The position numbers and the translations under genes were made by a program. Under the pieces are notes generated by a model. The model was not told where the DNA came from, searched no databases, and was given only the letters and a program-made list of their open reading frames with translations. A DNA stretch of 64,000 bases from an uncultured Amylibacter sp. (GTDB lineage: Bacteria; Pseudomonadota; Alphaproteobacteria; Rhodobacterales; Rhodobacteraceae). The stretch spans positions 806,001 to 870,000 of the forward strand of contig CANMGS010000002.1 of assembly GCA_947497475.1 (NCBI GenBank). The letters run 5' to 3'. How positions within the stretch are numbered: position 1 is the first letter of the stretch; every line of letters starts with the position of its first letter. Positions 6,972-30,011 of this stretch are shown here, in pieces.

Positions 6972-7068
6972 TTAAAGCGAAAAACATTACAACAACGCTT
7001 TAACCTAACGTCACGAACCTGTATAAGAAATAAAATGCCCGATGCGGGCGGTAACGGTTGAGGGGAAT

Positions 7069-7572: not shown

Positions 7573-7597
7573 TCGTTCAATTAAAGGAGCATCAGCC

Positions 7598-8947: not shown

Positions 8948-8960
8948 GGATTGGCGGAAA

Positions 8961-9946: not shown

Positions 9947-10392
9947 TATTCGCCACTTCCCGCAACAAATTTCATTAAAAGTGTCACAAGACTTACACTA
10001 CCTTGTGTATCTTCAATTTGGCCGCCGCGTTCCACCATAAATTCAGAACCACCAGGAATAATCTCGATGAAATTACCGCCCAATAAGCTTTCAGAAGCAA
10101 TTGATATTGATGAATCGTCTGGGATTTCAATACCTTCAATAACCGAAATCCCAAGTTCAGCACGGTATGTTGTGGGGTTTAATTCCATACTAGACACAGA
10201 GCCTATTTTCACGCCAGCCATACGCACATCTGTGCCAAGTGAAATGCCCTCAGCACTTCTAAAACTTGCATTCAATTCGTAATCATCTGTTGGACCAGAT
10301 ACACCAACTGCATTAGCTGCATATACTAAAAACCCAACGGCAGCAGCGACAACGACAGCACCAATAGTTGTTTCAATCAGGTTGTTTTTCAT
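9946..10392 (-). CDS. mlaD: MCE-domain phospholipid transport protein (MlaD type)
   Basis: The membrane-anchored substrate-binding subunit of the Mla system, which moves phospholipids between the outer and inner membranes. One N-terminal membrane helix (about residues 8-28) is followed by a single MCE domain (about residues 38-115) with the typical GLSLG-like stretch, here SAEGISLGTDVRMAGVKIG, and later SESLLGGNFIEIIPGG. At 148 residues it is a normal MlaD. The partner genes mlaE, mlaF, mlaC and mlaB are not next to it, as is usual in this order. Confidence 0.9.
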   Translation of the reverse strand: MKNNLIETTIGAVVVAAAVGFLVYAANAVGVSGPTDDYELNASFRSAEGISLGTDVRMAGVKIGSVSSMELNPTTYRAELGISVIEGIEIPDDSSISIASESLLGGNFIEIIPGGSEFMVERGGQIEDTQGSVSLVTLLMKFVAGSGE

Positions 10393-10404
10393 AATTTCAG
10401 GCCC

Positions 10405-10779
10405 TTATTCAGGTTGCCAAGCTTCGTAATCAGAACGGTCTGCGGGAGTTGCATTGCGCAAACTACCAGCAGGAGCATAAGCATTTACGGTCCCAGTCAG
10501 GTTTTCCTGATGTGGCTTTTCCCATGATTTATGTGCCAATGGTTTATCTGTCGGTGGTTGCTTATATGTATGGTGTAACCATCCATGCCAATCAGGGGAT
10601 ACACGACTTGCTTCAGCTTCCCCATTATAAATCACCCAACGGCGTTTACCGTCACGCGTTTCATAAAACACATTACCTTGTTCGTCTTCGCCAACACGTA
10701 CACCTTTTAACCAAGTGTGAATTTGTGTGTTCAACGTTTGACCATTCCACCATGTAAAAATGCGTTTTAGGAAGTCCAT
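10405..10779 (-). CDS. NDUFA12-family accessory subunit of NADH:ubiquinone oxidoreductase
   Basis: A homologue of the complex I accessory subunit NDUFA12 (B17.2), found in alphaproteobacteria and mitochondria. Visible family features are [14 protein letters not shown], a [19 protein letters not shown] stretch and the WHGWLHH segment. It probably helps assemble or stabilise complex I at the inner membrane. The start is uncertain: ATG 10779 gives the usual MDFLKRIF beginning, while in-frame codons at 10785 and 10791 add up to four residues. It is the first gene of the minus-strand set with mlaD and DUF2155. Confidence 0.88.
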
Positions 10780-10843
10780 GCTCATCACCATATTATCAAG
10801 TTGCTTGATCTATGCCTAATTTTTCATAAAAGGTCTAGCAAGA

Positions 10844-12115
10844 TTAAGACGCAGATGCGCTTTCATCCGCCGTTTCCGCTTCGCCATAGACAATCAAAGG
10901 TTCACCTTCGCCACGTGCGGCCTCTTCATTCACGACAACTTCGCTCACATTTTCAAGGCTAGGCAGTTCAAACATCGTATTTAATAGAATTTCTTCCAGA
11001 ATAGAACGAAGACCACGTGCGCCTGTTTTACGTTCAATCGCACGCTGAGCAATTGTGCGTAAGGCTTCTTCTGTAAATGTCAGCTTTGCGTCTTCTAGTT
11101 CAAACAAGCGTTGGTATTGCTTGACCAATGCGTTCTTTGGTTCGGACAAGATCGTTACAAGTGCATCCTCATCCAAATCCGTCAAAGTTGCCAAAACAGG
11201 TAAACGACCTACAAATTCTGGGATCAAACCAAATTTTAACAAATCTTCTGGTTCAAGATCGGTGAAAACCTCACCAACACCACGATTGTCTTCTTCTTTA
11301 ACATCAGCGCCAAAGCCAATTGATGATCCTTTACCACGCTGGGCAATAATACGATCAAGACCCGCAAAAGCACCGCCACAGATGAACAGAATGTTCGTTG
11401 TATCCACTTGAAGGAATTCTTGCTGAGGATGCTTACGGCCACCTTGTGGCGGAACAGAAGCAACAGTACCTTCCATAATCTTTAGAAGCGCTTGTTGAAC
11501 GCCCTCTCCTGATACATCGCGTGTAATAGAAGGGTTATCTGATTTGCGCGTGATCTTATCGACTTCATCAATGTAAACGATGCCACGCTGTGCACGTTCC
11601 ACATTATATTCCGAAGCTTGTAGAAGTTTTAAGATGATGTTTTCAACATCCTCACCAACATAACCTGCTTCTGTCAAAGTCGTTGCATCCGCCATAGTGA
11701 ATGGAACATCCAAAATACGTGCCAATGTTTGAGCAAGTAGAGTTTTACCACAACCCGTTGGACCAATCAGCATAATATTAGATTTCGACAATTCTATTTC
11801 AGAATTGTTATCAGCATGGTTCAAACGTTTATAGTGATTGTGCACTGCCACAGATAACACACGTTTTGCCATATCTTGGCCAATCACGTAGTCATCAAGA
11901 ACACCACAAATTTCCGCAGGTGCTGGAACACCTTCCGATGTCTTTAATGTCGATGACTTTGCTTCTTCACGGATAATATCCATACAAAGTTCAACACATT
12001 CATCACAGATAAAAACAGTTGGGCCAGCAATTAGCTTACGTACTTCATGTTGGCTTTTGCCACAAAAAGAACAGTAAAGCGTGTTTTTTGACTCGCTGTT
12101 ATCTGAATCTGCCAT
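10844..12115 (-). CDS. clpX: ATP-dependent Clp protease ATP-binding subunit ClpX
   Basis: The AAA+ unfoldase that feeds substrates to ClpP. The N-terminal zinc finger is present (CSFCGK ... CDECVELC, residues 10-43), followed by Walker A GPTGCGKT, Walker [11 protein letters not shown], the pore motif YVGEDVE and the ClpP-contacting IGFGADVK loop. At 423 residues it has the normal length. It lies downstream of clpP on the same strand with a 146-base gap, so it may have its own promoter as well as readthrough. In alphaproteobacteria ClpXP controls cell-cycle regulators. Confidence 0.97.
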
Positions 12116-12261
12116 ACTTTAACTCCGCTTACATTCTTTTATGGTCGCCAAAACACTGGCTAAACCGCATTTCCCTTGACAGTATTGCAGTTTATGAGCC
12201 TGCACAATGCCGATATTATGTATTCCAGATCACTTAAGATCCGTTAAAATTCACAAAGCGA

Positions 12262-12891
12262 TTACTTTGCTTCTTCTTCAGAGCTGCGTTGTTGAACGAT
12301 TTCATCAATCAAACCCCAATCCTTTGCTTCTTCCGCTGTCATAAAGTTATCGCGATCCAACGCCTCTTCAACGTTTTTCAGTTTTTGACCACAATGTTTG
12401 ACATAAATCTTATTCAAGCGATCTTTCAGCTCTAGAATCTCTTTGGCGTGCAGCGCTATATCAGATGCTTGACCTTGGAAACCACCAGAAGGTTGGTGCA
12501 CCATCACTCTGGAATTTGGCAATGAGAAACGCATCCCCTCTTCACCTGCAGCTAATAACAATGACCCCATAGAGGCTGCTTGACCAATGCAAAGTGTCGA
12601 TACTTTTGGGCGGATGTATTGCATTGTATCGTAAATAGACAAACCAGATGTCACAACGCCACCTGGGCTATTAATATACATCGCAATGTCTTTTGTTGGA
12701 TTTTCCGCTTCTAAAAACAACAACTGCGCCACAATCAGCGTAGACATGCCGTCATGAACAGGACCCGATACGAAAATAATCCGCTCCTTAAGCATACGCG
12801 AGAAAATATCGTAAGCGCGTTCACCACGGGATGTTTGTTCAACAACCATTGGCACAAGGGTATTCATATATACGTCTAAAGGATCTCTCAT
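12262..12891 (-). CDS. clpP: ATP-dependent Clp protease proteolytic subunit ClpP
   Basis: A serine protease that forms the 14-subunit Clp chamber. The catalytic Ser is in [14 protein letters not shown], the His in [13 protein letters not shown] and the Asp in [16 protein letters not shown] 12891 ([14 protein letters not shown]) is chosen as start because AGGCGAG precedes it. The same frame is open for 36 more codons upstream, but that extension has no ClpP-like sequence. The product is 209 residues, the usual size. It is transcribed ahead of clpX. Confidence 0.96.
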
Positions 12892-13175
12892 AGTCTCGCC
12901 TGTATTAAGTGTACTGCGCTTATCGCATCTAAATCTAACCAAAACATTAGTGCCGCGATCAAAGAGAGGCAAGAGCAGTTCAACCAAGTTTATCATCAAT
13001 GCTAAAATTAATTTATGAGCACTGTTAACCTATTTATCTCACAAATAATTGGTTGCAGATTTATCACGCAATAAATACGCACTAAATTATAACGTTAGGT
13101 CACATTTGACTGAACACAGTGTGATTAAATAGGGTGCAAACAGGGAAATGATTTATGATGAGGGAGCATCTTAAC

Positions 13176-14234
13176 ATGACACTAAAAAAAGTAGCCACTT
13201 CAGCAGCTATCCTGGCTGCAGGCACAAGCACAGCGTTTGCTGGCGGTCTTGACCGTTCAACATTTAGCTCAGCCATTCTTTTCGAAGAAGGTAACTATGC
13301 TGAAGTTGCATATGCTGTTACAACACCTAAAATTTCATCTGAGCAACTAGGGCCATTTGGTCCATCCGAAATTGCACAAAGCTTTAACACTGTTAAACTA
13401 GGCTTCAAGGCCGATATAGGCAAAAAGTTTGCAGTTGCAATTACATACAACAACCAACCAGTTGGCTCAGACATCAATTACTCAGGTACCCCATTAGGTA
13501 TCGCTACATCTAACTTGTCAGCAAATGTTCAAGCAGTGGCACTGAGTTTGCTTGGTAGATATAAGGCAACTGATAACTTCAGCGTTTACGGTGGCGTTAA
13601 CTACCAAACAGTTTCAGCAACTGCAAATATTGTCGCCGCAGGCTTAGCAACAAGTAACTTTGCATCAGAAAGCGAAGTTGGTTACATAATTGGTGCCGCA
13701 TATGAAAAGCCTGAAATCGCTTTGCGTGTGGCATTAACATATGAATCTGAAATCGATTATGAACTCAATACAACTGGCGGCGCAAGTACTGGCATTACAA
13801 CAGCAGCTACACCTGAAGCATGGACATTAGAGTTTCAAACAGGCGTAGCACCTAAAACATTGGTTTTCGGTAAAATCAGACATGCAGCTTGGGGAGATGC
13901 AAACATTATATCTCCAGCAGGTGTCGCTCTGACAGAATTTGAAGACACTACAGCTTACACACTGGGTGTAGGCCGTAAATTTACAGATAATGTATCTGGC
14001 TCATTCTCATTGTTCTATGAAGCAGCAGACGGCGGTACAAGCAGTGAGCTTGCTCCAACAGATGGTATTTTTGGCGGTACAATTGGCGTTTCTGTGAAAA
14101 TGGGTAAAGGTTTCAAAGTTTCAGGCGGTATTAGCCATTCAAACCGCGGTGATACAGTAGGAACAAATACTGGTGCTGTATTTTCAAACAACACTGTAAC
14201 AACTGTTGGCGTAAAACTATCTAAGAACTTCTAA
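13176..14234 (+). CDS. FadL/OmpP1-type outer membrane transport protein
   Basis: A beta-barrel outer membrane protein of the FadL/TodX class, which takes up long-chain fatty acids or other hydrophobic compounds. A signal peptide (MTLKKVATSAAILAAG, ending AFAGG) is followed by alternating amphipathic strands and a terminal Phe (KLSKNF) as expected for barrel insertion. At about 352 residues it is shorter than E. coli FadL, as many alphaproteobacterial relatives are. ATG 13176 begins the signal peptide properly; an ATG at 13155 adds MMREHLN. It is monocistronic and ends at a strong terminator. Confidence 0.82.
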   Translation: MTLKKVATSAAILAAGTSTAFAGGLDRSTFSSAILFEEGNYAEVAYAVTTPKISSEQLGPFGPSEIAQSFNTVKLGFKADIGKKFAVAITYNNQPVGSDINYSGTPLGIATSNLSANVQAVALSLLGRYKATDNFSVYGGVNYQTVSATANIVAAGLATSNFASESEVGYIIGAAYEKPEIALRVALTYESEIDYELNTTGGASTGITTAATPEAWTLEFQTGVAPKTLVFGKIRHAAWGDANIISPAGVALTEFEDTTAYTLGVGRKFTDNVSGSFSLFYEAADGGTSSELAPTDGIFGGTIGVSVKMGKGFKVSGGISHSNRGDTVGTNTGAVFSNNTVTTVGVKLSKNF

Positions 14235-14257
14235 GAAATTTTAAGACTACAAACTTT

Positions 14258-14285
14258 AAGGCCGCCTTTTTAGGCGGCCTTTTTT
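14258..14285 (+). terminator. Strong rho-independent terminator after the FadL-type gene
   Basis: AAGGCCGCC at 14258-14266 pairs perfectly with GGCGGCCTT at 14273-14281 across a six-base loop, followed by a T-run. It lies 23 bases after the stop codon. Confidence 0.92.
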
Positions 14286-14303
14286 GTGGGCATATAAAAC
14301 GGT

Positions 14304-14337
14304 ATAAAAAAAGAGCACCTAAAAGGCACTCTTTTCA
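14304..14337 (-). terminator. Rho-independent terminator after tig
   Basis: Read on the minus strand, AAAAGAGTGCC pairs with GGTGCTCTTTT and is followed by more Ts. Two of the pairs are G-U wobbles that only form in the minus-strand RNA; in plus-strand RNA they would be A-C mismatches. This fixes the direction and assigns the terminator to tig. Confidence 0.78.
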
Positions 14338-14356
14338 ATTTAGTTAAGTGAAAGAC

Positions 14357-15688
14357 TTATTTATCTTCTAATGCCTCAACAGCTTTTTGAAGATCATCTT
14401 TAGAGATTGATTTCTCTGTCACATTTGCTTGTTCCATGATGTGATCTACAACCTTATCTTCAAAGATTGGCGCACGAAGTTGCTGCAGCGCTTGCTCATT
14501 TTTCTGAATGAATTCAAAGAATTGCTTCTCTTGACCAGGGTACTGAGATGCTTGCTGCATTACAGCTTGCTGCATTTCCGCGTCTGTTACTGTGATCTCT
14601 TTTACAGAGCCAACTTCAGCCAACAACAAGCCTAAGCGCACACGGCGTACAGCAAGTTCTTTATGCTCATCTGTTGCTTCGATCTCTGGGTGATCGTGGC
14701 CCTGTACGTCAGGGTTTTCTTCATGCCACAACTGGTGTGCAATTTGATTTGCTTCTGCATCAACCATGCTTGGCGGCAGATCAAAATCAACCAACTTGTC
14801 CAAACCGTCCATCAAGTCACGCTTTGTCACCATACGTGCAGCACCTGCATATTCAGCTTCCAAACGCTCAGTGATTTGCTTTTTCAAATCGTCCAATGAT
14901 TCAGCGCCGAATTTCGTTGCCAACTCATCATTGATTTCAGCAGCAACAGCGCCCTGCACTGCATTCACTTTGCATTCAAACACAGCATCTTTGCCTGCTA
15001 GGTTTGGTGCGCCGTATTCATCAGGGAATTTCACGTTAACTTCAACGTCGTCACCAGCTTTAGCGCCAACCAACTGATCTTCGAAACCAGGGATAAAGCT
15101 GTTTGAACCAAGAACCAAAGGGTAATCATCAGCTTGACCACCATCAAAAGCTTCGCCGTCTACTTTACCTAAGAAGTTAATCACAACTTGGTCGCCGTCT
15201 TTTGCTTTAGAACCTTTTTTCTTGTCTTCGTAGTTTGTTGCAGTACCAGCCAAGTTCGCCAAAGCTTCGTCAACGTCAGCGTCTTCAACAGCTACAACCA
15301 ATTTTTCCAATTTCAATTTAGAAAAATCAGTTTCTGGGATCGGAGGAAGACATTCATAAGACAATGATACTTCAACATCATCGCCCTCTTTCCAATCTTG
15401 GTTTGTCATTTGGATGTCAGGTTGCGCAGCAGGTTTATCGCCAGATGTTTCGAAGTGATTTTTCATCGCTTCGTCAACGCTTTCTTGCATCGCTTCGCCC
15501 AATACAGATTGACCGAATTGCTTTTTCAGCATTGCCATTGGCACTTTGCCTTTGCGGAAACCTTTGATTTCTACGTTTGGCTGTGCTTCCAAAAGCTTTG
15601 CATTCACTTTTTCGTCCAGCTCAGCGGCTGTCACTGTGATCGCATATCCGCGCTTTAAGCCTTCATTTACGGTTTCTGATACCTGCAT
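14357..15688 (-). CDS. tig: Trigger factor, ribosome-associated chaperone and prolyl isomerase
   Basis: Binds near the ribosome exit tunnel and helps nascent chains fold. The N-terminal ribosome-docking signature GFRKGKVP is at about residues 43-50. An FKBP-type isomerase domain (about residues 155-245, [20 protein letters not shown]) and a long helical C-terminal domain follow. At 443 residues it has the normal length. It stands alone on the minus strand and ends at the terminator at 14304-14337. In many bacteria tig sits just before clpP; here it is a few genes away, with the FadL-type gene between. Confidence 0.97.
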
Positions 15689-15837
15689 TATGGCGTCCTT
15701 TTAAGTTTCAGGGGTGCAGGCATAGGCATACACCCACATACATGGGTAAAATCTGGTGCCCTTTTATGGGTGCTTTAGGGGGTATGCAAGGGCGTTTTAA
15801 CCATAGTACGCAACAGTTTCATGTATATTGTACAAAT

Positions 15838-16362
15838 CTATATTCTTGTACCTTTAACCCAAATCCGCATCTTGGTTTTATCCACGGTAAATTCAGGGTC
15901 ATTGATGTGTTCGTCATAAAACGTCGCATAGGCTTTCTTCGTTTCACGCGCCTGTGCCTCATACCACGGTGGATTATGCCCAATCCGTAGCTTTACAGCC
16001 TCTAATGCATCGCCAGAATATGAAATTGGTTGCACGGCCAGCTTGCGCGCCAATTCTAGATCACCATTACGCACCGAACGCGCAAATTGCATTTGAGGTT
16101 CTGCGAAACCCTCACCCAAATGGATACGTTGTGTAACCAATAGCCAAAACAGATGATCTGCATGTAACTTTAAGGCATCCAAACCACCATCCGACAAAAG
16201 CCGCTGCCCTAAGCAATGCACTATCAATTCATAATTGCTTTCGGGGCGGAATTCACCGATTTGAGCCAGATATGATCTTTTATTAACAGGGATATAGCCA
16301 TCGCGCTTAATCAACATGATGCGCGTACGGTTCAAAAACCATTGCATCAAACCATTTGCCAT
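15838..16362 (-). CDS. Protein of unknown function, about 174 residues
   Basis: I do not recognise a named family. The start at ATG 16362 has a strong GGGAGG five bases upstream; a GTG at 16368 would overlap that site. The protein has no signal peptide or membrane segment and looks cytoplasmic. It is mixed alpha/beta by eye, with QFARSVRNGDLELARKLAV and a tail rich in charged residues (DPEFTVDKTKMRIWVKGTRI). It lies between tig and tRNA-Leu, separated from tig by 149 bases, so it probably has its own transcript. Coding is supported by the ribosome-binding site and the open length. Confidence 0.7.
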   Translation of the reverse strand: MANGLMQWFLNRTRIMLIKRDGYIPVNKRSYLAQIGEFRPESNYELIVHCLGQRLLSDGGLDALKLHADHLFWLLVTQRIHLGEGFAEPQMQFARSVRNGDLELARKLAVQPISYSGDALEAVKLRIGHNPPWYEAQARETKKAYATFYDEHINDPEFTVDKTKMRIWVKGTRI

Positions 16363-16444
16363 AACCACCTCCCATAAAACCTAATCTTATCACCCTAAGC
16401 ATGTTCATACAGGATTTCTCTATTTGATCATATTCTTTGGAAAA

Positions 16445-16529
16445 TGGTACGGGTGAGAGGACTTGAACCTCCACGCCTCTCGGCGCCAGAACCTAAATCT
16501 GGTGCGTCTACCAATTCCGCCACACCCGC
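16445..16529 (-). tRNA. tRNA-Leu (anticodon UAG)
   Basis: The minus-strand sequence folds as a class II tRNA with a long variable arm (GCGCCGAGAGGCGT). The anticodon stem CCAGA/TCTGG closes loop TTTAGGT, giving anticodon TAG. The T-loop is TTCAAGT, and the 3' end, including an encoded CCA, is ACCCGTACCA. The acceptor stem GCGGGTG/CACCCGT has a G1-U72 wobble instead of the usual G-C. Length including CCA is 85 bases. Confidence 0.97.
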
Positions 16530-16648
16530 ACATTATTTCGAACAATCGGTTACATTGCTCGAATGAGGTGCCTTCTAGCCTAACTCTTTTCCATTGGCGA
16601 GAGGAAAAGTTACTTTTTTAGAATATTTTTTAAATGCAACAAAACAGG

Positions 16649-16668
16649 TTTAATTCAGAGGAATTAAA
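16649..16668 (-). terminator. AT-rich hairpin just after nnr, possible weak terminator
   Basis: TTTAATTC (16649-16656) and GAATTAAA (16661-16668) form a perfect 8-bp stem with a four-base loop, four bases beyond the nnr stop. The following minus-strand sequence has CCTGTTTTGTTG rather than a clean T-run, so this is at best a weak terminator. Confidence 0.3.
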
Positions 16669-16672
16669 GCCT

Positions 16673-18286
16673 TTATAGACCCAATTTTCGAAAAACCAGT
16701 GGCAACTGCTCTGGAATATCTTCTGCAATCAACCCGGGCCCAAATTGCAATGCGCATTCCACATGCAACCATGCCGCAGTTTCGGCTGCTTGCATCGGCG
16801 CAAATCCTCGCGCTAGCAAGCCTGTTACAAAGCCAGCCAAGACATCCCCAGATCCAGCCGTCGCCAACCACGGTGCAGATCGTTTATAGTGGGCTGAATT
16901 TATAGAACAGCTTCCGTCAGGGGCGGCAATCACAGTATCTGGTCCCTTGAACAAAACAACGCACCCTGCCCGTTTTGCAGCCGCTCTTGTAGCATCCACC
17001 TTAGAATAAACGGGTCCTTTGGTCGGTTTTGCACTTAACTTTTCTGAAATGTCTGGGAATAGACGTGCGAATTCTCCTCCATGTGGAGTAAGCACACATT
17101 TTTCATGAAGAAGGTCGAATAAGACTTTGTCTTTACTTATTAAAGTTAACGCATCAGCATCTATAGTAGTGGTGCGTTGGGATTGTAGAACCGCTTTCAA
17201 TAATTCAGCCTGATCCCGTTCAAGCCCTAAAGCAGGTCCAATACATACCGCATTGATCCGCCCATCCGATGCAATGTTATCCGTATAATCTTCTGCATCA
17301 GACACTTCGGCCAGCATAATGGCATTCAAGTGTGCTGCATGTTCATTCATTGCCGAAAGGGCAGCTCCTATCGTGACAAGCCCTGCCCCAATACGCAAAG
17401 CGCCTCGCGCGGCTAATCGTGCCGCTCCTGTTTTTGTAGAAGGCCCTGATATAACGTAAGCATGACCATGCGAATATTTATGCTGATGCAATGTTTTTTG
17501 CAGTCCACCACCAACAAGGCCACGTGCATCAACGTCAATATCCCATGTCTCTAACAGATTTACTTGTGTGGCTTCATGACTTGGCAGGTTCAAATCAACG
17601 CAATGTATCTTATCGATATCATACAGACATTCCCCAAGGTATTGCCCGACTTTAAGTGACCCAAAGCTCACAACGATCCTACAAAAAAACCAATTCCCAC
17701 CAATCGGATAGCCAGAGTCAGCACACAACCCTGATGGAATATCGACTGCAATTCCGTTTTCATAACAATAATCCGACCACTCCCTTGATATTTCAAGAAG
17801 ATCGCCATCAAAACGTCGGCAAAGCCCTGTTCCAAACAAAGCGTCCACAAATATTGTGCTTTGCCCTCTTTCAATAGATGCATTTCCGTAAATATCTGTT
17901 CCTTCTTTCTCAACGGCTATATCCGTTTGTTTTTCAATAACGCCTTTCGTTAAAGCCTGTACGCTTCCTATATTTATCCATCGCTCGTAATTTACGCGCG
18001 CATCTGGGGGCAACTTTTCTGCATTCCCATATAGGAAAAGTTCAACTTCCCAACCCCATTCTGTCAACAAGCGCGCAACAACAAAACCATCACCGCCATT
18101 ATTTCCAGGCCCGCATAAAATAACCGCACGGTGGCATGTTTGCGCCATCTTTGGCCATTCTTCAAAAATAGCCTCAACAACACCACGCCCAGCACATTCC
18201 ATCAATTCCAATCCTGTGACCTCGCCACTATCAATCGCAGCTTGCTCAGTGGCGCGCATTTGTGCAGATGTTACCAGTTCAATCAT
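16673..18286 (-). CDS. nnr: Bifunctional NAD(P)H-hydrate epimerase / ADP-dependent NAD(P)H-hydrate dehydratase
   Basis: A metabolite-repair enzyme that restores damaged NAD(P)H hydrates. The N-terminal YjeF_N epimerase domain (about residues 1-210) shows VILCGPGNNGGDGFVVARLL and FVDALFGTGL. The C-terminal ribokinase-like dehydratase domain (about residues 240-537) shows VISGPSTKTGAARLAARGAL, LTPHGGEFARL and ATAGSGDVLAGFVTGLLARG. The 537-residue fusion is the standard bacterial form. It starts at ATG 18286 and is divergent from glnB, a neighbourhood often seen in Rhodobacterales. Confidence 0.95.
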   Translation of the reverse strand: MIELVTSAQMRATEQAAIDSGEVTGLELMECAGRGVVEAIFEEWPKMAQTCHRAVILCGPGNNGGDGFVVARLLTEWGWEVELFLYGNAEKLPPDARVNYERWINIGSVQALTKGVIEKQTDIAVEKEGTDIYGNASIERGQSTIFVDALFGTGLCRRFDGDLLEISREWSDYCYENGIAVDIPSGLCADSGYPIGGNWFFCRIVVSFGSLKVGQYLGECLYDIDKIHCVDLNLPSHEATQVNLLETWDIDVDARGLVGGGLQKTLHQHKYSHGHAYVISGPSTKTGAARLAARGALRIGAGLVTIGAALSAMNEHAAHLNAIMLAEVSDAEDYTDNIASDGRINAVCIGPALGLERDQAELLKAVLQSQRTTTIDADALTLISKDKVLFDLLHEKCVLTPHGGEFARLFPDISEKLSAKPTKGPVYSKVDATRAAAKRAGCVVLFKGPDTVIAAPDGSCSINSAHYKRSAPWLATAGSGDVLAGFVTGLLARGFAPMQAAETAAWLHVECALQFGPGLIAEDIPEQLPLVFRKLGL

Positions 18287-21659: not shown

Positions 21660-23396
21660 GTGATTAGATCTTTTATTTCATTACTATTACAGCCTGACCA
21701 CAAAGGGCTGTATCATGTCAGCAAAGCGGCTATGGCTCGCATCAAAATCAGGACAATCATCATAGGTGGGCTCGCCGCCATCGTTTTAACAGTATATCCA
21801 ACACATATCGTTTTATCTTGGATCATTCCTTTGATCATAATTGATCGCATGAATGTTCCTGTCGAAAACCGATTAATAGCCGATTATGAACGCGATAAAA
21901 CATTCTCACGAAGATTACGGATATTCTACCTGTTTATATCATGGCTAGAGTCTGTGTTCATTGCAGGGCTCTTTATCCATATTTCTTTGTTGGAACATAA
22001 CCATGCGCATTTTATCCCCTACGTGGTTATTATGGCAGCAACAATCTATATTATTAGCACGATGTTCCACAGTGCCATATTCTTATTTGGACATCTCGTC
22101 ATTCATAATTCAGCTATTATCTTTACAGCATTATGGAATGTTTACATAAGCTCTCCAGATGAAAAAGGACTTGCATGGGCTGAGTTTTTCACAACCCTCG
22201 TCTTAATCTACTTCACAATAGATATTGCGCGATATTTCTACCGTAACTATCTGGAAAGCGATCGCAAACAAAATACACTCAATGCGGCCTTGAAACGCGC
22301 CCAAGAATTAACCCAAGTGAAAAGCGATCTTTTGTCCACTGTTGGACATGAGTTACGCACCCCACTGAATGGGATACTTGGCTTTTCTAAGGTTATGCAA
22401 ACAACAAAACTATCCCGCAAACAAAGTGAATATATCGACCTGATCGAAGGTGCCGGAAAAGATTTAAATATATTGTTATCAAACATCTTAGACAGTGAAG
22501 CAATCGAAGGAGGTCGTTTTGAACATAAGCCAACCGAAACGAACATTCCAAATCTTCTTTTCAGACTAAAGAAAACTTTTGAAGTTGTAGCACAGGACAA
22601 AGACTTAGATATTATCCTCGATGTTAGTGAAAATTTCCCCAGTAAAGTTATGATCGATGAAACACGCTTGGGGCAATGCATTTCTAATCTTCTATCAAAC
22701 GCTGTGCGCTTCACCAAAATAGGCAGGATAACAATACGTGCATTTATTATAGATGGTACACCAACGTCCACTTTACATATCAGTGTTGTTGATACTGGCG
22801 TCGGTATATCCCCCGCTCAGAAAAGTCAGATATTTGATAAATTTACCAAAGCAGATAATCAAATATCACAAGTACAAGGAACTGGCTTAGGACTTTGGCT
22901 GATAAGCAATATTGCAAAAGCAATGGATGGTGAATTAACCCTAACTGGCTCTTCATACGAAGGCAGCCAATTTGAATTAAAATTCAACGTAAAAAATACT
23001 GACATTAATACGCCGCAAAACATCGGAACATTAAAAAATACACGTATCTTACATATTGAAGATACACAAACAAACCTCATACTCGTGCGTATTCTACTCG
23101 AAGAAAAACACGCCAAGGTGATAGACGCTCAAACAGGTGAAAAAGCACTTAAACTTTTAGAGTCAGACGGTTTTGATATGATCTTATGCGATGTGCAATT
23201 GCCAGATTGCGATGGCAACACATTACTAAAAGATATCCGAAAACTAGACAATCAAAACGCGAACCTACCAGTCATTGCACTTACAGCCCAACCAGAAAAA
23301 ATTGAAAAGACTGATGAATGCGATGGATTTCACACGATTCTACCCAAACCAATTGATCCAAACCTTTTACTTTCGACACTAATTAAGTTGAATTGA
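21660..23396 (+). CDS. Membrane hybrid sensor histidine kinase with C-terminal receiver domain
   Basis: The N-terminal part (about residues 30-195) has several membrane helices and no large periplasmic domain. The HisKA phosphoacceptor is His230 in STVGHELRTPLNGIL. The ATPase domain shows SNLLSNAVRFT, VVDTGVGISP and GTGLGLWLI. A receiver domain at about residues 465-578 has ILCDVQLPDCDG with the phosphorylatable Asp. There is no separate response regulator beside it, so its output may run through a phosphotransfer protein elsewhere. GTG 21660 is used as start; an upstream ribosome site is weak, so the true start may be a few codons inside. The signal sensed is unknown. Confidence 0.88.
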   Translation: MIRSFISLLLQPDHKGLYHVSKAAMARIKIRTIIIGGLAAIVLTVYPTHIVLSWIIPLIIIDRMNVPVENRLIADYERDKTFSRRLRIFYLFISWLESVFIAGLFIHISLLEHNHAHFIPYVVIMAATIYIISTMFHSAIFLFGHLVIHNSAIIFTALWNVYISSPDEKGLAWAEFFTTLVLIYFTIDIARYFYRNYLESDRKQNTLNAALKRAQELTQVKSDLLSTVGHELRTPLNGILGFSKVMQTTKLSRKQSEYIDLIEGAGKDLNILLSNILDSEAIEGGRFEHKPTETNIPNLLFRLKKTFEVVAQDKDLDIILDVSENFPSKVMIDETRLGQCISNLLSNAVRFTKIGRITIRAFIIDGTPTSTLHISVVDTGVGISPAQKSQIFDKFTKADNQISQVQGTGLGLWLISNIAKAMDGELTLTGSSYEGSQFELKFNVKNTDINTPQNIGTLKNTRILHIEDTQTNLILVRILLEEKHAKVIDAQTGEKALKLLESDGFDMILCDVQLPDCDGNTLLKDIRKLDNQNANLPVIALTAQPEKIEKTDECDGFHTILPKPIDPNLLLSTLIKLN

Positions 23397-23556: not shown

Positions 23557-23593
23557 CGTCAAGCTTGACGGCAGAGTTTCAGCATCGCTTAAT
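23557..23593 (+). promoter_or_regulatory. Candidate promoter and palindromic operator of the betaine/DMSP-type transporter
   Basis: CGTCAAGCTTGACG at 23557-23570 is a perfect 14-bp palindrome. Its right half supplies a -35 box TTGACG (23565-23570). Seventeen bases later CTTAAT (23588-23593) fits a -10 box. A protein binding the palindrome would block or recruit RNA polymerase. Start codon of the substrate-binding protein gene is about 80 bases downstream. The regulator is unknown. Confidence 0.42.
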
Positions 23594-23673
23594 ACCGCCA
23601 GAGCTGCGGGGACTATGAAAACACCGACAGCCAGTATGTAAAAACATACAAAACAACATGGGAGACTAAATTA

Positions 23674-24681
23674 ATGATCAATCAAATTAAAGGTATCGCC
23701 GCATTCGCTGTTGGCGCTACGCTTATGTCATCTGCTGCTCACGCTGCTTGCGGTGACATTTCTATCGCTGAAATGAACTGGGCATCCGCTGAATTCATGG
23801 CAAACGTAGACGCAATCATCCTTGAAAAGGGCTACGGCTGTAACGTTGAGCTAGTACCAGGTGCTACAACAACAACATTCGCATCTATGAACGAAAAAGC
23901 ACAACCAGACGTAGCTCCAGAGCTATGGGCAAACGCTGTTGCCGAACCTCTAAACGCTGCTATCGACGAAGGTCGTATGTCTGTAGCAAACGAAGGTCCA
24001 ATCGTAGGTGCTGGTGACGGTTATTACATCAACCCAGTGGTTGCTAAAAACCACCCAGAGCTAAACACTCTAGAAAAAATCTTGGAGCGCCCTGACTTGT
24101 TCCCAGATGCAGAGGATCCATCAAAAGGCGCTATCATCGGTTGTCCTGCTGGTTGGGGTTGTCAGCTAATCAACGCAAACCTTTTCCGTGCTTTCGACAT
24201 GGAAGCAAAAGGCTGGAAATTAGTTGACCCAGGTTCTGCTGCTGGTCTTGACGGTTCTGTAACTAAAGCAACAGAGCGCGATCAAATGTGGCTTGGCTAC
24301 TACTGGTCACCAACAGCTCTTGCTGGTCGTCTAAACCTACAACCACTTGCTGTAGAACAAGAGTGGGCTGGCCGTGAGAACTGGGATGGCTGTATTTCTA
24401 AGCCAGAGCAAGAATGTGCTGATCCTAAGCCATCATCTTGGACTGTATCTGTTGTAAACACAGTGATCACAAAAGAAGCTGCTGAAAAAGGTGGCGAAGC
24501 TATGGATTACTTCGGTAAGCGTACTTTCCCAGCTGACGTAATGGGCGGCATGTTGGTATTCATGGCTGATGAGCAAGCTGCAGGTGAAGATGCTGCAATC
24601 GAATTCATGAGCAAGCACAAAGATCTATGGAAATCATGGGTTTCTGAAGAAGCTGCTGCAAAAATCGAAGCTTCACTTTAA
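23674..24681 (+). CDS. proX: Periplasmic substrate-binding protein of a betaine/DMSP-type ABC transporter (ProX/OpuAC family; candidate DmpX)
   Basis: A 335-residue secreted binding protein with a signal peptide ending at AHA before residue 25 (AACGDISIAEMNW). The OpuAC fold is recognised from MNWASAEF, the ELWANAV segment, GDGYYINPVVAK and LGYYWSPTALAG. These supply several Trp and Tyr residues of the kind that cage quaternary ammonium or sulfonium groups by cation-pi contacts. Four internal Cys could form disulfides. It is first in an operon with permease and ATPase genes, and the DMSP lyase gene follows. DmpXWV DMSP importers have been described in marine Rhodobacterales; assignment here rests on context, and glycine betaine remains possible. 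Confidence 0.88.
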   Translation: MINQIKGIAAFAVGATLMSSAAHAACGDISIAEMNWASAEFMANVDAIILEKGYGCNVELVPGATTTTFASMNEKAQPDVAPELWANAVAEPLNAAIDEGRMSVANEGPIVGAGDGYYINPVVAKNHPELNTLEKILERPDLFPDAEDPSKGAIIGCPAGWGCQLINANLFRAFDMEAKGWKLVDPGSAAGLDGSVTKATERDQMWLGYYWSPTALAGRLNLQPLAVEQEWAGRENWDGCISKPEQECADPKPSSWTVSVVNTVITKEAAEKGGEAMDYFGKRTFPADVMGGMLVFMADEQAAGEDAAIEFMSKHKDLWKSWVSEEAAAKIEASL

Positions 24682-24695
24682 GCTGTAATTAAATT

Positions 24696-24730
24696 GACCC
24701 ACCACTGGACGCCAGTGGTGGGTCTTTTTT
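24696..24730 (+). terminator. Perfect hairpin terminator between the binding-protein and permease genes
   Basis: GACCCACCACTGG and CCAGTGGTGGGTC form a flawless 13-bp stem with a three-base loop, followed by six Ts. It sits inside the operon, so it should let only part of transcription reach the permease and ATPase, giving an excess of binding protein. Confidence 0.92.
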
Positions 24731-24754
24731 ATATAAAAACCAGAGGGAAAAACA

Positions 24755-25675
24755 ATGGCAGAAGACAGTCTCATAGATTGGTCTAAGCTGACTTGGATAG
24801 AGCCCCCCGTTATGGGCCGCCAAGACTTACGAGATCTAAAAAAAGGTATTGATGGTTCATTCCGCGATTTCATCCGTGAAAATGGTGAATGGATCGAAAA
24901 TATCTTCGAACCACTAAAGTGGATACTTATTAAATTCGAACATGCAATGGTTGGGATGCCATGGCCACTATTCTTAGTGATCGTCGCAGGCCTATCATAT
25001 CTAGGCTCCCGAAGCTGGAAACTATCTTTAGGTGCTGTTCTTTCATTCATTCTAATCGGTTGGTTAGACATGTGGGAAGGCACAATGGCAACTGTTGCCA
25101 TGGTCTCGGTCGCCACATTCTTATGTATTGCCATTGGTATTCCCATCGGGGTTTGGATGTCGCGCTCAGATCGTGTTCAAGGTGCTATCGTTCCAGTTTT
25201 GGACATCATGCAAACAATCCCAAGCTTCGTTTACCTAATTCCGGTGGTTATGCTGCTCGGTATCGGTAAAGCACCAGCTTTGATCGCTGTGATGATCTAT
25301 GCGATCCCACCAATTGTGCGCCTAACTAATCTCGGTATTCGCCTTGTGGACAAAGAAACATTGGAAGCAGCTGACGCATTTGGTGCAAATAAAAAAGAAC
25401 GTCTCTTCGGTGTTCAAATTCCACTGGCTCTGCCAAACATCTTCGCAGGTGTGAACCAAACGATCATGATGGCTTTGGCCATGGTTGTGATTGCTGCGAT
25501 GATTGGTGCAGGTGGTCTGGGTACTCCAGTGCTACGCGCCGTGAACAACCAATACCTAGCACTTGGTGTATTTAACGGTATGGCAATTGTTGCGATTGCG
25601 ATCATCTTCGATCGTGTATCTCAAGCATATGGTAAGCGGTTGCAGAAACATCGCGAAGGAGGCCACGGTGTCTGA
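24755..25675 (+). CDS. proW: Betaine/DMSP-type ABC transporter permease (ProW/OpuAB family; candidate DmpW)
   Basis: A 306-residue inner membrane permease. A soluble N-terminal stretch of about 70 residues precedes the membrane helices, as in ProW. The ATPase-contacting EAA loop is EAADAFGANKKERLFGVQIP, followed by LALPNIFAGVNQTIMMALAMVVIAAMIG. GAGGG precedes the ATG. The ATPase gene overlaps its end by eight bases, so the two are translationally coupled. It is read through the terminator that follows the binding-protein gene. Confidence 0.93.
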   Translation: MAEDSLIDWSKLTWIEPPVMGRQDLRDLKKGIDGSFRDFIRENGEWIENIFEPLKWILIKFEHAMVGMPWPLFLVIVAGLSYLGSRSWKLSLGAVLSFILIGWLDMWEGTMATVAMVSVATFLCIAIGIPIGVWMSRSDRVQGAIVPVLDIMQTIPSFVYLIPVVMLLGIGKAPALIAVMIYAIPPIVRLTNLGIRLVDKETLEAADAFGANKKERLFGVQIPLALPNIFAGVNQTIMMALAMVVIAAMIGAGGLGTPVLRAVNNQYLALGVFNGMAIVAIAIIFDRVSQAYGKRLQKHREGGHGV

Positions 25676-26717
25676 TCTTAAAGTACAAATCAAAAACCTT
25701 TACAAAATCTTTGGTAAAAATCCTAAAAGCATGGTCAAACATGTTGAGGGCGGCATGTCTAAACCAGACTTGTTGAAAAACCACGGACACGTAATTGGCC
25801 TAAACAACATCAACCTAGATATCCCTGCAAAGGGTATCCAAGTGATCATGGGCTTGTCTGGTTCAGGTAAATCTACCCTGATCCGTCACATCAACCGCCT
25901 TATTGAACCAACTGCTGGTGAAATGATTGTTGATGGACAAGATGTTTTGACCATGTCACCCGATGCATTGCGCGACTTCCGTCGCTTCAACGCATCAATG
26001 GTGTTCCAAAAATTCGCACTTCTCCCACACCGTACGGTGATCAAGAACGTTCTTTACGGTCTTGAAATCCAAGGTATCGAAGAAAAAGAAGCAATGGAAC
26101 GCGGCCAAAAATGGTTGGAACGTGTGGGCCTAAAAGGGTTCGAAGAACACTACCCTGCGCAACTATCTGGCGGTATGCAACAACGTGTGGGCCTTGCCCG
26201 CGCTTTGGCAACAGATGCTGACATCCTACTGATGGACGAAGCTTTCTCTGCCCTTGACCCGTTGATCCGTACAGATATGCAGAACATCCTTTTGGAACTG
26301 CAAGAAGAGCTGCACAAAACGATCATCTTTATCACACACGATTTGGATGAGGCTTTGCGCATTGGTGACAACATCGCAATCTTGCGCGATGGTGCCATGG
26401 TTCAAACTGGCTCAGCTCAGGACATCGTTCTGAACCCAGCTGATGAATACGTCACGGACTTTATCCAAGACATCAACCGTGCACGCGTTCTGGAACTGAA
26501 CTCAATCATGGGTAAAAAGCCAGCTAAAGCGACTGCTTTGAAACTGGACAAATCCATGGTGATTGACGTTGCAATGCAAGAGCTTTCAAACGCAAAAGCA
26601 AAATCTGCAACAGTTGTCGATGGCAACAAAGTGGTTGGCTCTGTGACTATGGACTCAATGGTGCAAGCCATTGCACGTCCAGATGGCGAAGTAAAAGGCA
26701 TCGACTCTTACCGCTAA
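25668..26717 (+). CDS. proV: Betaine/DMSP-type ABC transporter ATP-binding protein (ProV/OpuAA family; candidate DmpV)
   Basis: A 349-residue ATPase with Walker A GLSGSGKST, signature LSGGMQQRVGLARAL and Walker B ILLMDEAFSALDP. The C-terminal segment SATVVDGNKVVGSVTMDSMV resembles part of a CBS domain, the osmosensing element of ProV/OpuAA, but is shorter than a full pair. The start is GTG 25668 (VSDLKVQIKNLYKIF), preceded by GAAGGAGG and overlapping the permease stop; codons further upstream lie inside the permease gene and are not ProV-like. Confidence 0.94.
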   Translation: MSDLKVQIKNLYKIFGKNPKSMVKHVEGGMSKPDLLKNHGHVIGLNNINLDIPAKGIQVIMGLSGSGKSTLIRHINRLIEPTAGEMIVDGQDVLTMSPDALRDFRRFNASMVFQKFALLPHRTVIKNVLYGLEIQGIEEKEAMERGQKWLERVGLKGFEEHYPAQLSGGMQQRVGLARALATDADILLMDEAFSALDPLIRTDMQNILLELQEELHKTIIFITHDLDEALRIGDNIAILRDGAMVQTGSAQDIVLNPADEYVTDFIQDINRARVLELNSIMGKKPAKATALKLDKSMVIDVAMQELSNAKAKSATVVDGNKVVGSVTMDSMVQAIARPDGEVKGIDSYR

Positions 26718-26740
26718 GATCACAACAAACATTACAATCA

Positions 26741-26765
26741 GGGCCTCCAATTGGGGGCCCTTTTT
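26741..26765 (+). terminator. Rho-independent terminator after the transporter operon
   Basis: GGGCCTCC pairs with GGGGGCCC (one U-G pair) across AATT, then TTTTT. It separates the transporter from the DUF4345-dddP genes. A TATAAT at 26797-26802, without a clear -35 box, could start a new transcript there. Confidence 0.85.
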
Positions 26766-26827
26766 ATATGGACAGCTGCTTTTAAAGTCGCCAAACTATA
26801 ATAATAGGGAAATAAGGGGATCCTAAG

Positions 26828-27262
26828 ATGTCATTTCATATCTTACGCGCACTGTTATTCTTATCTAGCATCTTGATTATGGTTATCGGCAGCTCATACT
26901 TTTTTCTAGGGCCAGACATGGCCTTCAACCTAATGTTAGATCTTATGAAACCCATCTTAGGCGAACAACCACCCATCGTAGAAATGTCACCAGCAAATGT
27001 TGATAGCGAAATCCGTACATTATCCCCAATGATGGTTGCATATGGTTTTATGGTATTTCTATGCGCCAAACACCTTAGAACACACCTATATTATGTCCCT
27101 CACTTACTTGGTCTCTTTATGATTGTGGGCAGTGGGCGCATCCTGTCATACATCTTTGTCGGCAACCCACATCCATTATTTCTGGTTCTAGCTGCTGTAG
27201 AACTTGGTGTGCCTATTTTCATATATCTGGTCTATCGTTTCACCATATCCAGAATGGCATAA
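26828..27262 (+). CDS. DUF4345 family small membrane protein
   Basis: A 144-residue inner membrane protein with four predicted helices (about residues 8-32, 68-82, 92-112 and 118-138). It contains a GSSYFFLGPD turn after the first helix and the RTLSPMMVAYGFMVFLCAK segment typical of DUF4345. Function is unknown. It lies 100 bases ahead of dddP on the same strand and after the transporter terminator, so it may share a transcript with dddP. A role in DMSP handling would be guesswork. Confidence 0.78.
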   Translation: MSFHILRALLFLSSILIMVIGSSYFFLGPDMAFNLMLDLMKPILGEQPPIVEMSPANVDSEIRTLSPMMVAYGFMVFLCAKHLRTHLYYVPHLLGLFMIVGSGRILSYIFVGNPHPLFLVLAAVELGVPIFIYLVYRFTISRMA

Positions 27263-27363
27263 GGCACGTCCTGTTCACGACATTTTTGCCCCATCAAAGA
27301 CGCAAACAGAATTGCCAAGAACACATCTGCATGCTCACCTAAACGAAAGGGAGTGTTGTACAG

Positions 27364-28692
27364 ATGAATACGCATTATTCAGACACACGTAAAATAGACC
27401 CAACACGTGGTGACACGCTAGCCGATGGTAGCCCAAATGACGGTGATCGCATTGAAATCGGCCCCACACTATTGGCTTTACGCGAATGGGAGACAGCAGG
27501 ATTAACGCCTCCCAATCTGGATGCAATGCGTAAATATCGTTGGGAACGCTTGACCAAACACATCGTTGATCGTGATTACGGCGGCTTGCTTATATTCGAC
27601 CCACTGAATATTCGTTATGCCACAGACAGCACAAATATGCAGTTGTGGAACACTCATAATCCGTTTCGCGCCGTCCTTTTATGTGCAGATGGATATATGG
27701 TGATTTGGGATTATAAAAACTCCCCTTTCCTATCAACATTCAATCCTTTGGTACGCGAACAACGTTCAGGTGCCGATCTCTTCTATTTTGATCGTGGCGA
27801 TAAAGTAGATGTCGCAGCGGATGTCTTTTCCAAAGAGGTTCGCGATCTGATTAATGAACATGGTGGCGGCAATAATCGCCTCGCCGTTGATAAAGCAATG
27901 CTCAATGGCATCCGTGCCTTAGAAGCCCAAGGTTTTGAGATTATGCCAGGTGAAGAAGTTACCGAAAAATCCCGCAGTATAAAAGGCCCAGATGAAATTC
28001 TCGCCATGCGCTGTGCGTCTCATGCCTGCGAAGCATCTATCCTAGAGATGTTTGAAGGGACACAGGTCGGTATGTCCGAAGATGAGATTTGGGCTGAGCT
28101 GCATAAATCCAACATCAAACGCGGCGGTGAATGGATTGAAACGCGCCTCCTTGCAACTGGCCCACGCACTAATCCATGGTTTCAAGAATGTGGCCCACGC
28201 CGTTTACAAAACAACGAAATTCTCGCCTTTGATACCGACTTAGTCGGGTGTTACGGCATTTGTATTGATATCAGTCGCACATGGTGGATCGGCGATCAAA
28301 AACCACGCCAAGATATGATTTATGCAATGCAACACGCCCATGAACACATCATGACCAATATGGCATTGATGAAACCTGGTGTGTCCATGCGTGATCTGAC
28401 ATTCAAAGGTCACCAACTGGATGATCAATACATCAAAGGCCAATATGGATGCCGTTTCCACGGTGTTGGCCTTTGCGATGAATGGCCGTTAATTGCATAT
28501 AAAGAAGGCTATGTCGAAGGCGCCTTTGATTATGAATTAGAGGCTGGAATGGTACTTTGTGCAGAAGCGCTGGTCAGCCCAGAAGGCGGAGATTTCTCGA
28601 TTAAACTCGAAGATCAGGTTCTGGTTACAGAAGACGGATTTGAAAATTTGACGAAATATCCGTTCTGCCCACACCTCATGGATGAAACATAA
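27364..28692 (+). CDS. dddP: DMSP lyase DddP (M24 metallopeptidase fold)
   Basis: Cleaves dimethylsulfoniopropionate to dimethyl sulfide and acrylate in the cytoplasm. The sequence follows known roseobacter DddP closely from the start (SDTRKIDPTRGDTL) through YATDSTNMQLWN and MVIWDYKNSPFLSTFNPLV to the end. The six metal ligands known for DddP are all present: Asp290, Asp292, Asp302, His366, Glu401 and Glu416, each five positions lower than the published numbering of a roseobacter enzyme as I recall it. At 442 residues it is full length, and GGGAG precedes the start. Being next to a betaine/DMSP-type importer strongly supports a DMSP role. Confidence 0.95.
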   Translation: MNTHYSDTRKIDPTRGDTLADGSPNDGDRIEIGPTLLALREWETAGLTPPNLDAMRKYRWERLTKHIVDRDYGGLLIFDPLNIRYATDSTNMQLWNTHNPFRAVLLCADGYMVIWDYKNSPFLSTFNPLVREQRSGADLFYFDRGDKVDVAADVFSKEVRDLINEHGGGNNRLAVDKAMLNGIRALEAQGFEIMPGEEVTEKSRSIKGPDEILAMRCASHACEASILEMFEGTQVGMSEDEIWAELHKSNIKRGGEWIETRLLATGPRTNPWFQECGPRRLQNNEILAFDTDLVGCYGICIDISRTWWIGDQKPRQDMIYAMQHAHEHIMTNMALMKPGVSMRDLTFKGHQLDDQYIKGQYGCRFHGVGLCDEWPLIAYKEGYVEGAFDYELEAGMVLCAEALVSPEGGDFSIKLEDQVLVTEDGFENLTKYPFCPHLMDET

Positions 28693-28790: not shown

Positions 28791-30011
28791 ATGTCAAAGG
28801 GTAAAATCACATTCACTGGTCATTCTGGTGAAGAACTAGCAGCGCGTTTAGATATGCCATCAGGCGAATTGCGCGCTACAGCCATCTTTGCGCATTGCTT
28901 TACATGCACCAAAGACATCCCAGCTGCACGTCGTATTGCACAACGTTTGGCCACAATGGGCATTGCAGTTTTGCGTTTCGATTTCACAGGTCTTGGGCAC
29001 TCCCAAGGCGAATTTGCAAACACAGACTTTACAAGCAATGTCGAAGATTTGGTACGTGCTGCAAATTATTTAACCAAAAACAACAGTGCACCAACATTAC
29101 TAATTGGTCACTCTTTAGGCGGTGCAGCAGTTTTAAAAGCCGCCAGCGAAATTCCTTCGATCAAAGCGGTTGTCACAATCGGCGCCCCAGCCGACCCAGG
29201 TCATGTCGTTCATAACTTTGGCAGCTCCTTGGAAGAGATCGCCCAAAAAGGTAAAGCCACAGTTCAATTGGCAGGCCGCCCTTTCAAAATCACCCAAGAT
29301 TTTGTCTCTGACGTATCCGAAGCCAATCTAACCCCAGCGATCGAAAACCTGAAACGCGCGTTACTGGTCTTGCATTCCCCAATTGACCAAACCGTTGGTA
29401 TTGAAAATGCAGCACAAATCTTTAGCACTGCAAAGCATCCGAAAAGCTTTATCACTTTGGATGACGCAGACCATTTGGTCACACGCAAAGAAGATGCCGA
29501 ATATGCTGCCGAAGTTATCGCCGCATGGTCAGCACGCTACCTTGGCCTAAAACAACCAGCAGCCCCAATCGGCGCCCCAGAAGGCGTGGTACGATCCACC
29601 GAAGCAGACCCAGATGGTTTTTTACAAGATATTTGCGCTGGTCCACTTCATCATGCACGTGCGGATGAACCCATTACATATGGCGGCACGAATAAAGGCA
29701 TGTCGCCATATCAATTCCTATCCGCAGGATTGGGCGCTTGTACATCTATGACAGTTCGCATGTATGCCCGCCGCAAGAAAATCCCATTGGATCATGTCCA
29801 AGTCAGCATTATCCATCACAAAGTCCATGCCCAAGATTGCGATACATGCATGACCACCGAAGGCCGCATTGATCAGTTTACCCGTAAAGTCAAACTCCAA
29901 GGTGATCTGACAGATGAACAAAGACAAAAGCTTTTAGAGATTGCGGACAAATGCCCAGTGCACCGCACATTAGAAGGTGAAATCAATATACAGACAGAAT
30001 TGGCAGATTAA
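28791..30011 (+). CDS. Alpha/beta hydrolase fused to an OsmC-family peroxiredoxin-like domain
   Basis: The N-terminal half (about residues 1-255) is a serine hydrolase: nucleophile elbow GHSLGGAAV, Asp in LLVLHSPIDQTVG and His in DADHLVTRKEDA. The C-terminal half (about residues 265-406) is OsmC-like, with two Cys of the peroxide-reducing type in GLGACTSMTVRMYA and DKCPVHRTLEG. This bifunctional architecture is known in bacteria, but its substrate is not. It lies 98 bases after dddP on the same strand. It could protect against peroxides or deal with reactive products, but no direct link to acrylate can be shown. Confidence 0.9.
   Translation: MSKGKITFTGHSGEELAARLDMPSGELRATAIFAHCFTCTKDIPAARRIAQRLATMGIAVLRFDFTGLGHSQGEFANTDFTSNVEDLVRAANYLTKNNSAPTLLIGHSLGGAAVLKAASEIPSIKAVVTIGAPADPGHVVHNFGSSLEEIAQKGKATVQLAGRPFKITQDFVSDVSEANLTPAIENLKRALLVLHSPIDQTVGIENAAQIFSTAKHPKSFITLDDADHLVTRKEDAEYAAEVIAAWSARYLGLKQPAAPIGAPEGVVRSTEADPDGFLQDICAGPLHHARADEPITYGGTNKGMSPYQFLSAGLGACTSMTVRMYARRKKIPLDHVQVSIIHHKVHAQDCDTCMTTEGRIDQFTRKVKLQGDLTDEQRQKLLEIADKCPVHRTLEGEINIQTELAD

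Follow-up and report, generated by a model that had tools for sequence, protein, structure and literature searches.

A putative onium-solute importer from the sister clade of DmpXWV neighbours the DMSP lyase gene dddP in one Amylibacter sublineage

The closest described relatives of the system considered here are the DmpXWV importers of dimethylsulfoniopropionate (DMSP), represented by SPO2441-2443 of Ruegeria pomeroyi and by RnDmpX of Roseovarius nubinhibens, a binding protein solved with DMSP (7YLE) whose pocket is made up of Trp35, Thr64, Trp84, Glu113, Trp152, Ala153, Tyr200 and Trp202 (PMC10030565). The genes dddD and dddX are often linked to transporter genes whereas most other DMSP catabolic genes are not, and dmpXWV of R. 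pomeroyi is not colocalized with known DMSP catabolic genes (PMC10030565). In this study, we analyzed a locus of an uncultured Amylibacter sp. in which, by contrast, the genes of a similar importer, XWV, adjoin the DMSP lyase gene dddP. The locus lies in a stretch of 64,000 nucleotides (contig CANMGS010000002.1, positions 806,001 to 870,000), hereafter named the window. No description of a DmpX-type importer beside dddP was found in the open-licence literature, which was covered mostly at title and abstract level. We propose, with moderate confidence, that the transporter would import zwitterionic onium solutes, with DMSP favored and carnitine-type betaines a live rival, and that it would form a unit separate from the ordinary DddP beside it.

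The transporter is encoded by genes for a binding protein (X, 23674-24681), a permease (W, 24755-25675) and an ATPase (V, 25668-26717), followed by those for a DUF4345 protein (26828-27262) and DddP (27364-28692), all on the forward strand, as are the other features given below. X matched OpuAC (PF04069) with 153 bits (cut-off 21.2), W matched BPD_transp_1 with 94.5 bits (cut-off 26.4) and V matched TIGR01186 (proV) with 350.8 bits (cut-off 326.6), while the DUF4345 protein reached 60 bits with PF14248 (cut-off 26.5) and DddP 858 bits with NF043017 (cut-off 600). These scores are far beyond chance and, together with the open reading frames (ORFs), bear out the genes, their coordinates and order, and the importer family named in an earlier note on this DNA. 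The start of V is most likely the GTG at 25668, which overlaps the W stop codon, rather than the TTG at 25563 where the listed ORF begins. Among curated NCBIfam models, X remained under the cut-offs of both ProX (38.4 bits, cut-off 215) and the choline substrate-binding protein (31.9 bits, cut-off 379); the top model for W was a choline-type permease (265.9 bits, under the cut-off of 363).

By sequence, the nearest solved relative of X is 7YLE (5e-48; 7.6e-125 with a profile). A predicted structure of X (mean pLDDT 88), which served for fold ranking alone, gave the same relative at rank 1 in Foldseek (1.4e-26), followed by TmoX (2.6e-16). TmoX (4XZ6), ProX (1R9L), ChoX (2REG) and OpuAC have the fold and the general aromatic-box principle in common with X and score far below 7YLE, so that X was not seen to group with binders of choline or betaine alone. 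The window set and DmpXWV have in common the X-W-V order, an OpuAC-type X and six of the eight DMSP contacts. At the RnDmpX pocket positions, window X carries W36, T65, W85, D115, W161, G162, Y209 and W211: the cage residues Trp35, Trp84, Trp152 and Trp202 are present together with Thr64 and Tyr200, but Glu113 is replaced by Asp115 and Ala153 by Gly162. Glycine at the latter position also occurs in 6 of 15 rows of the RnDmpX clade.

A tree of 73 binding proteins placed window X outside the RnDmpX clade (14 rows, support 100/100), whose members are 55-62% identical to RnDmpX, and membership of that clade was therefore rejected. The window's own clade, named clade A, belongs to a 54-row group (98/96) that is joined by proteins of two probable SAR11 genomes (1.4 Mb, one genus). 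The comparison with DmpX7211 of Pelagibacter HTCC7211, itself about 35% identical to the DSS-3 protein (PMC10030565), is drawn through these probable SAR11 proteins, which group with the window side and not with RnDmpX; the HTCC7211 sequence was not in the comparison. In the part of PMC13310141 available to us, a 40% identity rule is used to assign DmpX, and DmpX alone is called highly DMSP-specific. Window X is 31-32% identical to RnDmpX and 36% identical to one of the probable SAR11 proteins (locus L152), in a comparison made without the DSS-3 and HTCC7211 proteins. The earlier note's comparison with DmpX is borne out in that RnDmpX is the nearest solved relative by sequence and by fold, and the aromatic cage that it proposed to compare is kept; window X differs from RnDmpX in clade and at the Glu113 and Ala153 positions, and its identity to it is low. 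Clade A is wide, the best 80 of at least 497 confirmed relatives coming from Rhodobacteraceae, SAR116, Gammaproteobacteria bins and SAR324 bins. Among these 80, on which all counts of named relatives and loci below rest, the nearest is Amylibacter sp. SFDW26 (L054), with an X that is 85% identical to that of the window. The genome of a sister species (G018) encodes binding proteins of both clades.

One loop of window X is remodelled. We aligned 118 rows, of which 94 are clade-A proteins besides the window/G018 pair, all distinct in their core; L043, L053, L156 and L158 were left out, as were six judged duplicates (L054, L055, L057, L063, L072 and L074). Of 98 window-X positions at which at least 95% of the 94 proteins have one residue, five are changed in window X, and four of these fall in a single loop at residues 113-118, where LGEGWW has become AGDGYY. 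All four changes are common to the window and G018, and the new residues occur in none of the 94 other rows (position 113: 91 L, 3 G; 115: 93 E, 1 N; 117: 94 W; 118: 92 W, 2 F). Between the window and the sister species, the ratio of nonsynonymous to synonymous divergence (dN/dS) is 0.159 for X, 0.049 for W, 0.065 for V and 0.013 for DddP. The loop change and the X ratio are consistent with a ligand shift, the comparison being descriptive; alternatively, rapid evolution relative to the partner subunits is common among binding proteins. Synonymous divergence between the same species is 0.52 for X, 0.58 for W and 0.28 for V vs 1.08 for DddP, low values for the transporter that would fit high expression. 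Such values would also suit a broad osmolyte importer, taking up glycine betaine, proline betaine and DMSP alike for stress protection and not for catabolism, as would the promiscuity of many OpuAC-family importers. We consider this explanation improbable, as X is far closer to DmpX than to ProX, OpuAC or ChoX, and for an osmolyte role the host has two further OpuAC-type systems (the one binding protein scanned falls short of the ProX cut-off) as well as a BCCT carrier.

The lyase is an ordinary member of its family, predicted to cleave DMSP to dimethyl sulfide (DMS) and acrylate. It is 77% identical to the solved DddP 4RZY (E 2e-237). Asp295, Asp297, Asp307, His371, Glu406 and Glu421 (4RZY numbering), which we take to be the metal ligands, are all identical in the window protein, in line with the earlier note's six ligands, and the same holds for Tyr366 and Asp377, presumably catalytic; no notable difference from the 4RZY type was seen.

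To place the linkage of transporter and lyase in the genus, dddP loci were compared. DddP scored over the cut-off in 23 of 33 genus genomes; besides the window, 11 of the other 22 were examined (L034, L147 and L209-L217). Near dddP, glnA was found in 9 of these 11 loci, DUF4345 in 6 and a hydrolase-OsmC fusion gene in 4, while one locus (G018) had XWV and another (G025) had only V. The G025 gene (L212, G025:C28, 11224-12270) is an intact frame of 349 amino acids, directly after the kinase gene, whose product is 82% identical to window V and groups with the V proteins of the window and G018 (97/95); X and W were not found at that dddP locus. Other relatives show the order glnA-dddP-parE with no transporter. 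In A. kogurei (G021), glnA and parE likewise flank DUF4345-dddP with no transporter between them, and 71 kb separate this locus from the clade-A transporter. Because, besides the window, XWV stands beside dddP in G018 only, V alone in G025 and neither at the A. kogurei locus, the transporter seems to have arrived, or to have been retained, beside dddP in one Amylibacter sublineage. These gene orders mark the linkage as local to that sublineage and not as a conserved system, and an ancient linkage was rejected.

The XWV genes are followed by a strong terminator-like hairpin with a T-run (26740-26761, -18.3 kcal/mol, z -4.8), which the sister species also has, differing at a single place in the loop. 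Because it stands between them, the transporter and DUF4345-dddP are most likely separate transcription units, and the view of transporter and lyase as one unit was not supported. Of the linkage claimed earlier, the physical adjacency remains, confined to one sublineage and split by this hairpin. Between X and W, a second hairpin followed by a T-run (24696-24724, -26.9 kcal/mol, z -7.2), whose stem differs in the sister species but, judged by eye, can still pair, may raise expression of X above that of W and V. A sigma-70 scan was uninformative, giving 4 promoter-like sites, fewer than the shuffle mean of 10.1.

A chance neighbourhood with no functional link, whatever the cargo, would account for the confinement to one sublineage, for V and dddP in G025 without X or W, for the 71 kb between the two sets in A. 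kogurei and for the hairpin between the units. It is countered by the gene order, which is identical in the two species despite diverged neighbours (hybrid kinase 71% and methyltransferase 79% identical). We regard such a coincidence as possible but somewhat doubtful; since it overlaps the other explanations, their likelihoods are not exclusive shares of a whole.

The genes flanking clade-A relatives bring carnitine into play. A total of 1179 neighbour ORFs of the 80 named loci, some of them spurious antisense frames, were clustered, and chosen representatives were scanned for families. A canonical carnitine cluster (carnitine 3-dehydrogenase, BKACE, acyl-CoA dehydrogenase, ADP-forming acyl-CoA synthetase and a protein of crotonobetainyl-CoA-hydratase type) adjoins the transporter in 5 of the 80 loci, namely in Aliiroseovarius (L073, L079), Thalassovita mediterranea (L074) and SAR116 (L098, and L061 with two cluster genes before the contig end). 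Carnitine 3-dehydrogenase exceeded its cut-off of 592 in both representatives scanned (L074, 700.6 bits; L098, 763.0 bits). A variant cluster occurs in three more loci (L080, L087 and L119) with a shorter dehydrogenase, which scored 303 (L080) and 307 bits (L119), under the L-carnitine dehydrogenase cut-off of 414; L169, outside the 80 loci, has genes for BKACE and acyl-CoA dehydrogenase. On the 73-row tree, with L138 standing in for L074, the carnitine label needs four changes. These neighbours would fit uptake of carnitine, or of a trimethylammonium carboxylate related to it (gamma-butyrobetaine, crotonobetaine), by a transporter that feeds the host carnitine cluster, its adjacency to dddP being incidental. 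Against this cargo, neither cluster form was detected in 72 of the 80 loci (flank lengths vary), and carnitine is bound only slightly by DmpX of R. pomeroyi (PMC10030565). In the majority of the 80 loci, neither a carnitine cluster nor a DddP-like gene was seen; the latter was found in two, L054 (97%) and L099 of SAR324 (430 bits, under the cut-off of 600). A DmdA-like neighbour at L140 (366 bits, cut-off 410) was not counted.

The host genome (3.02 Mb) has a canonical carnitine cluster of its own (G000:C2:494637-501997), with a carnitine 3-dehydrogenase of 743 bits (cut-off 592). No OpuAC-type or BCCT gene was matched in the 19 kb around it, which leaves room for XWV as its supplier; however, an MFS_2 carrier gene (L171, 4122-5363) lies 1.3 kb from the carnitine regulator gene and could serve the cluster. 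The part of PMC12421898 available to us describes a SAR11 region where genes for carnitine dehydrogenase, BKACE and butyrobetaine dioxygenase accompany an ABC system for glycine betaine, and the link between a betaine ABC importer and carnitine genes is therefore already in print. The MFS_2 carrier and the SAR11 region pull opposite ways, as the region would favor carnitine as cargo. As far as the available part of PMC10130141 goes, the carnitine transporter of R. pomeroyi (SPO2995-2998) is a different one, confined to close relatives among the strains compared. A broken carnitine dehydrogenase in G018 was considered and rejected, its ORF of 475 amino acids being open. The host cluster (L171, G000:C2:488000-507000; 6638-16070) ends in an OYE-like oxidoreductase gene.

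Co-occurrence was assessed across 198 genomes of the family, with clades split by identity (at least 41% for clade A, about 30-38% for the other clade, that of RnDmpX relatives) and three weaker rows left out (a second copy in G073, a fragment in G102, and G249). With kinship ignored, DddP accompanied clade A in 5 of 19 genomes and occurred in 111 of the remaining 179 (Fisher p 0.006); for carnitine 3-dehydrogenase the corresponding counts were 9 of 19 and 132 of 179 (p 0.03), which is also a point against carnitine. The other clade, taken as a control, showed no association with DddP (19/37 vs 97/161, p 0.36) or with carnitine 3-dehydrogenase (27/37 vs 114/161, p 0.84). Since both genes are under-represented with clade A, the control goes with neither and kinship was ignored, presence and absence are indecisive for the cargo. 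Taking the two sides together, we judge import of carnitine or a related compound, with the dddP adjacency incidental, rather unlikely but a live rival.

DMSP as the favored cargo is partly supported by 7YLE as nearest relative, by the kept cage, by the gene order common to the sister species and by the grouping with probable SAR11 proteins. At L152, one of two loci of probable SAR11 origin, dmdA (514.6 bits, cut-off 410) follows X at a distance of 7.2 kb. The host itself has dmdA (500 bits, cut-off 410), an acuI-family gene (451 bits, cut-off 297) and a PF16867 cupin, a cupin-lyase homologue (63 bits, cut-off 27), and in G227 a clade-A transporter lies 11.7 kb from a DddP of 617.7 bits (cut-off 600). 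Several observations weigh against it: same-clade transporters stand beside carnitine genes in several lineages, DddP is rarer with clade A, XWV beside an over-cut-off dddP is restricted to two sister species, a single operon of transporter and lyase is unsupported owing to the hairpin, and the altered loop includes Glu113, a published DMSP contact. In addition, a BCCT carrier 0.2-0.3 kb downstream of the host acuI-family gene (L221, G000:C2, 233-3075) is a further candidate DMSP importer that could supply DMSP instead of XWV. Its best model is a glycine betaine BCCT (422 bits, under the cut-off of 650); the available part of PMC13270143 deals with BCCT importers whose genes cluster with dddD or dddX.

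Several features around these loci are recorded here. Upstream of X, a hybrid histidine kinase gene (21660-23396; HisKA, HATPase_c, Response_reg) belongs to the sublineage arrangement, and its product diverges fast between the sister species (71% identity, compared with 99.8% for glnA). Downstream, dddP is adjoined by a gene for an alpha/beta-hydrolase fused to an OsmC domain (28791-30011; PF12146, PF02566). G031 carries dddP and a clade-A transporter more than 1 Mb apart on a single contig (L036, L210). At L152 (G258, 8037-17421), XWV is followed by genes for an aldehyde dehydrogenase, an M19 dipeptidase-family protein and a 551-amino-acid protein that matched neither Pfam nor NCBIfam; a short ORF and dmdA come next. 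Transporters of the group have the M19 and 551-amino-acid genes nearby in L077, L102, L105, L127, L161, L165 and L167 as well, L105 and L165 perhaps being the same record.

Overall, we picture a DddP lyase gene, often placed between glnA and parE in the genus, that in one Amylibacter sublineage would have gained or kept as its neighbour an XWV set from the sister clade of DmpXWV. This importer would form a transcription unit by itself and bind a zwitterionic onium carboxylate in its aromatic cage. In this host, the main cargo would most likely be DMSP, passed both to DmdA and to DddP, the latter yielding DMS and acrylate while AcuI would handle the acrylyl-CoA step; the importer may instead, or in addition, carry carnitine or gamma-butyrobetaine. 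More speculatively, and with little confidence, the sister clade could be a large uncharacterised importer family whose cargo, DMSP or a carnitine-type betaine, follows the adjoining catabolic genes, the Amylibacter loop having been tuned to DMSP beside dddP to give a DmpX-type importer physically tied to the lyase.

In at least one marine survey, dmpX is used as a DMSP-specific marker, according to the part of PMC13310141 available. A widespread sister clade that has nearly the entire published pocket, and in several lineages carnitine genes as neighbours, cautions that cargo may not be readable from the pocket residues or from loose homology. What this analysis chiefly adds is the altered loop of the two dddP-linked proteins, seen alongside the carnitine links found elsewhere in the sister clade; the two proteins offer a small test case for the residues that discriminate between DMSP and carnitine. 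Should DMSP be the cargo, the locus would be an import-and-cleavage neighbourhood of a kind not found for dmpXWV of R. pomeroyi (PMC10030565).

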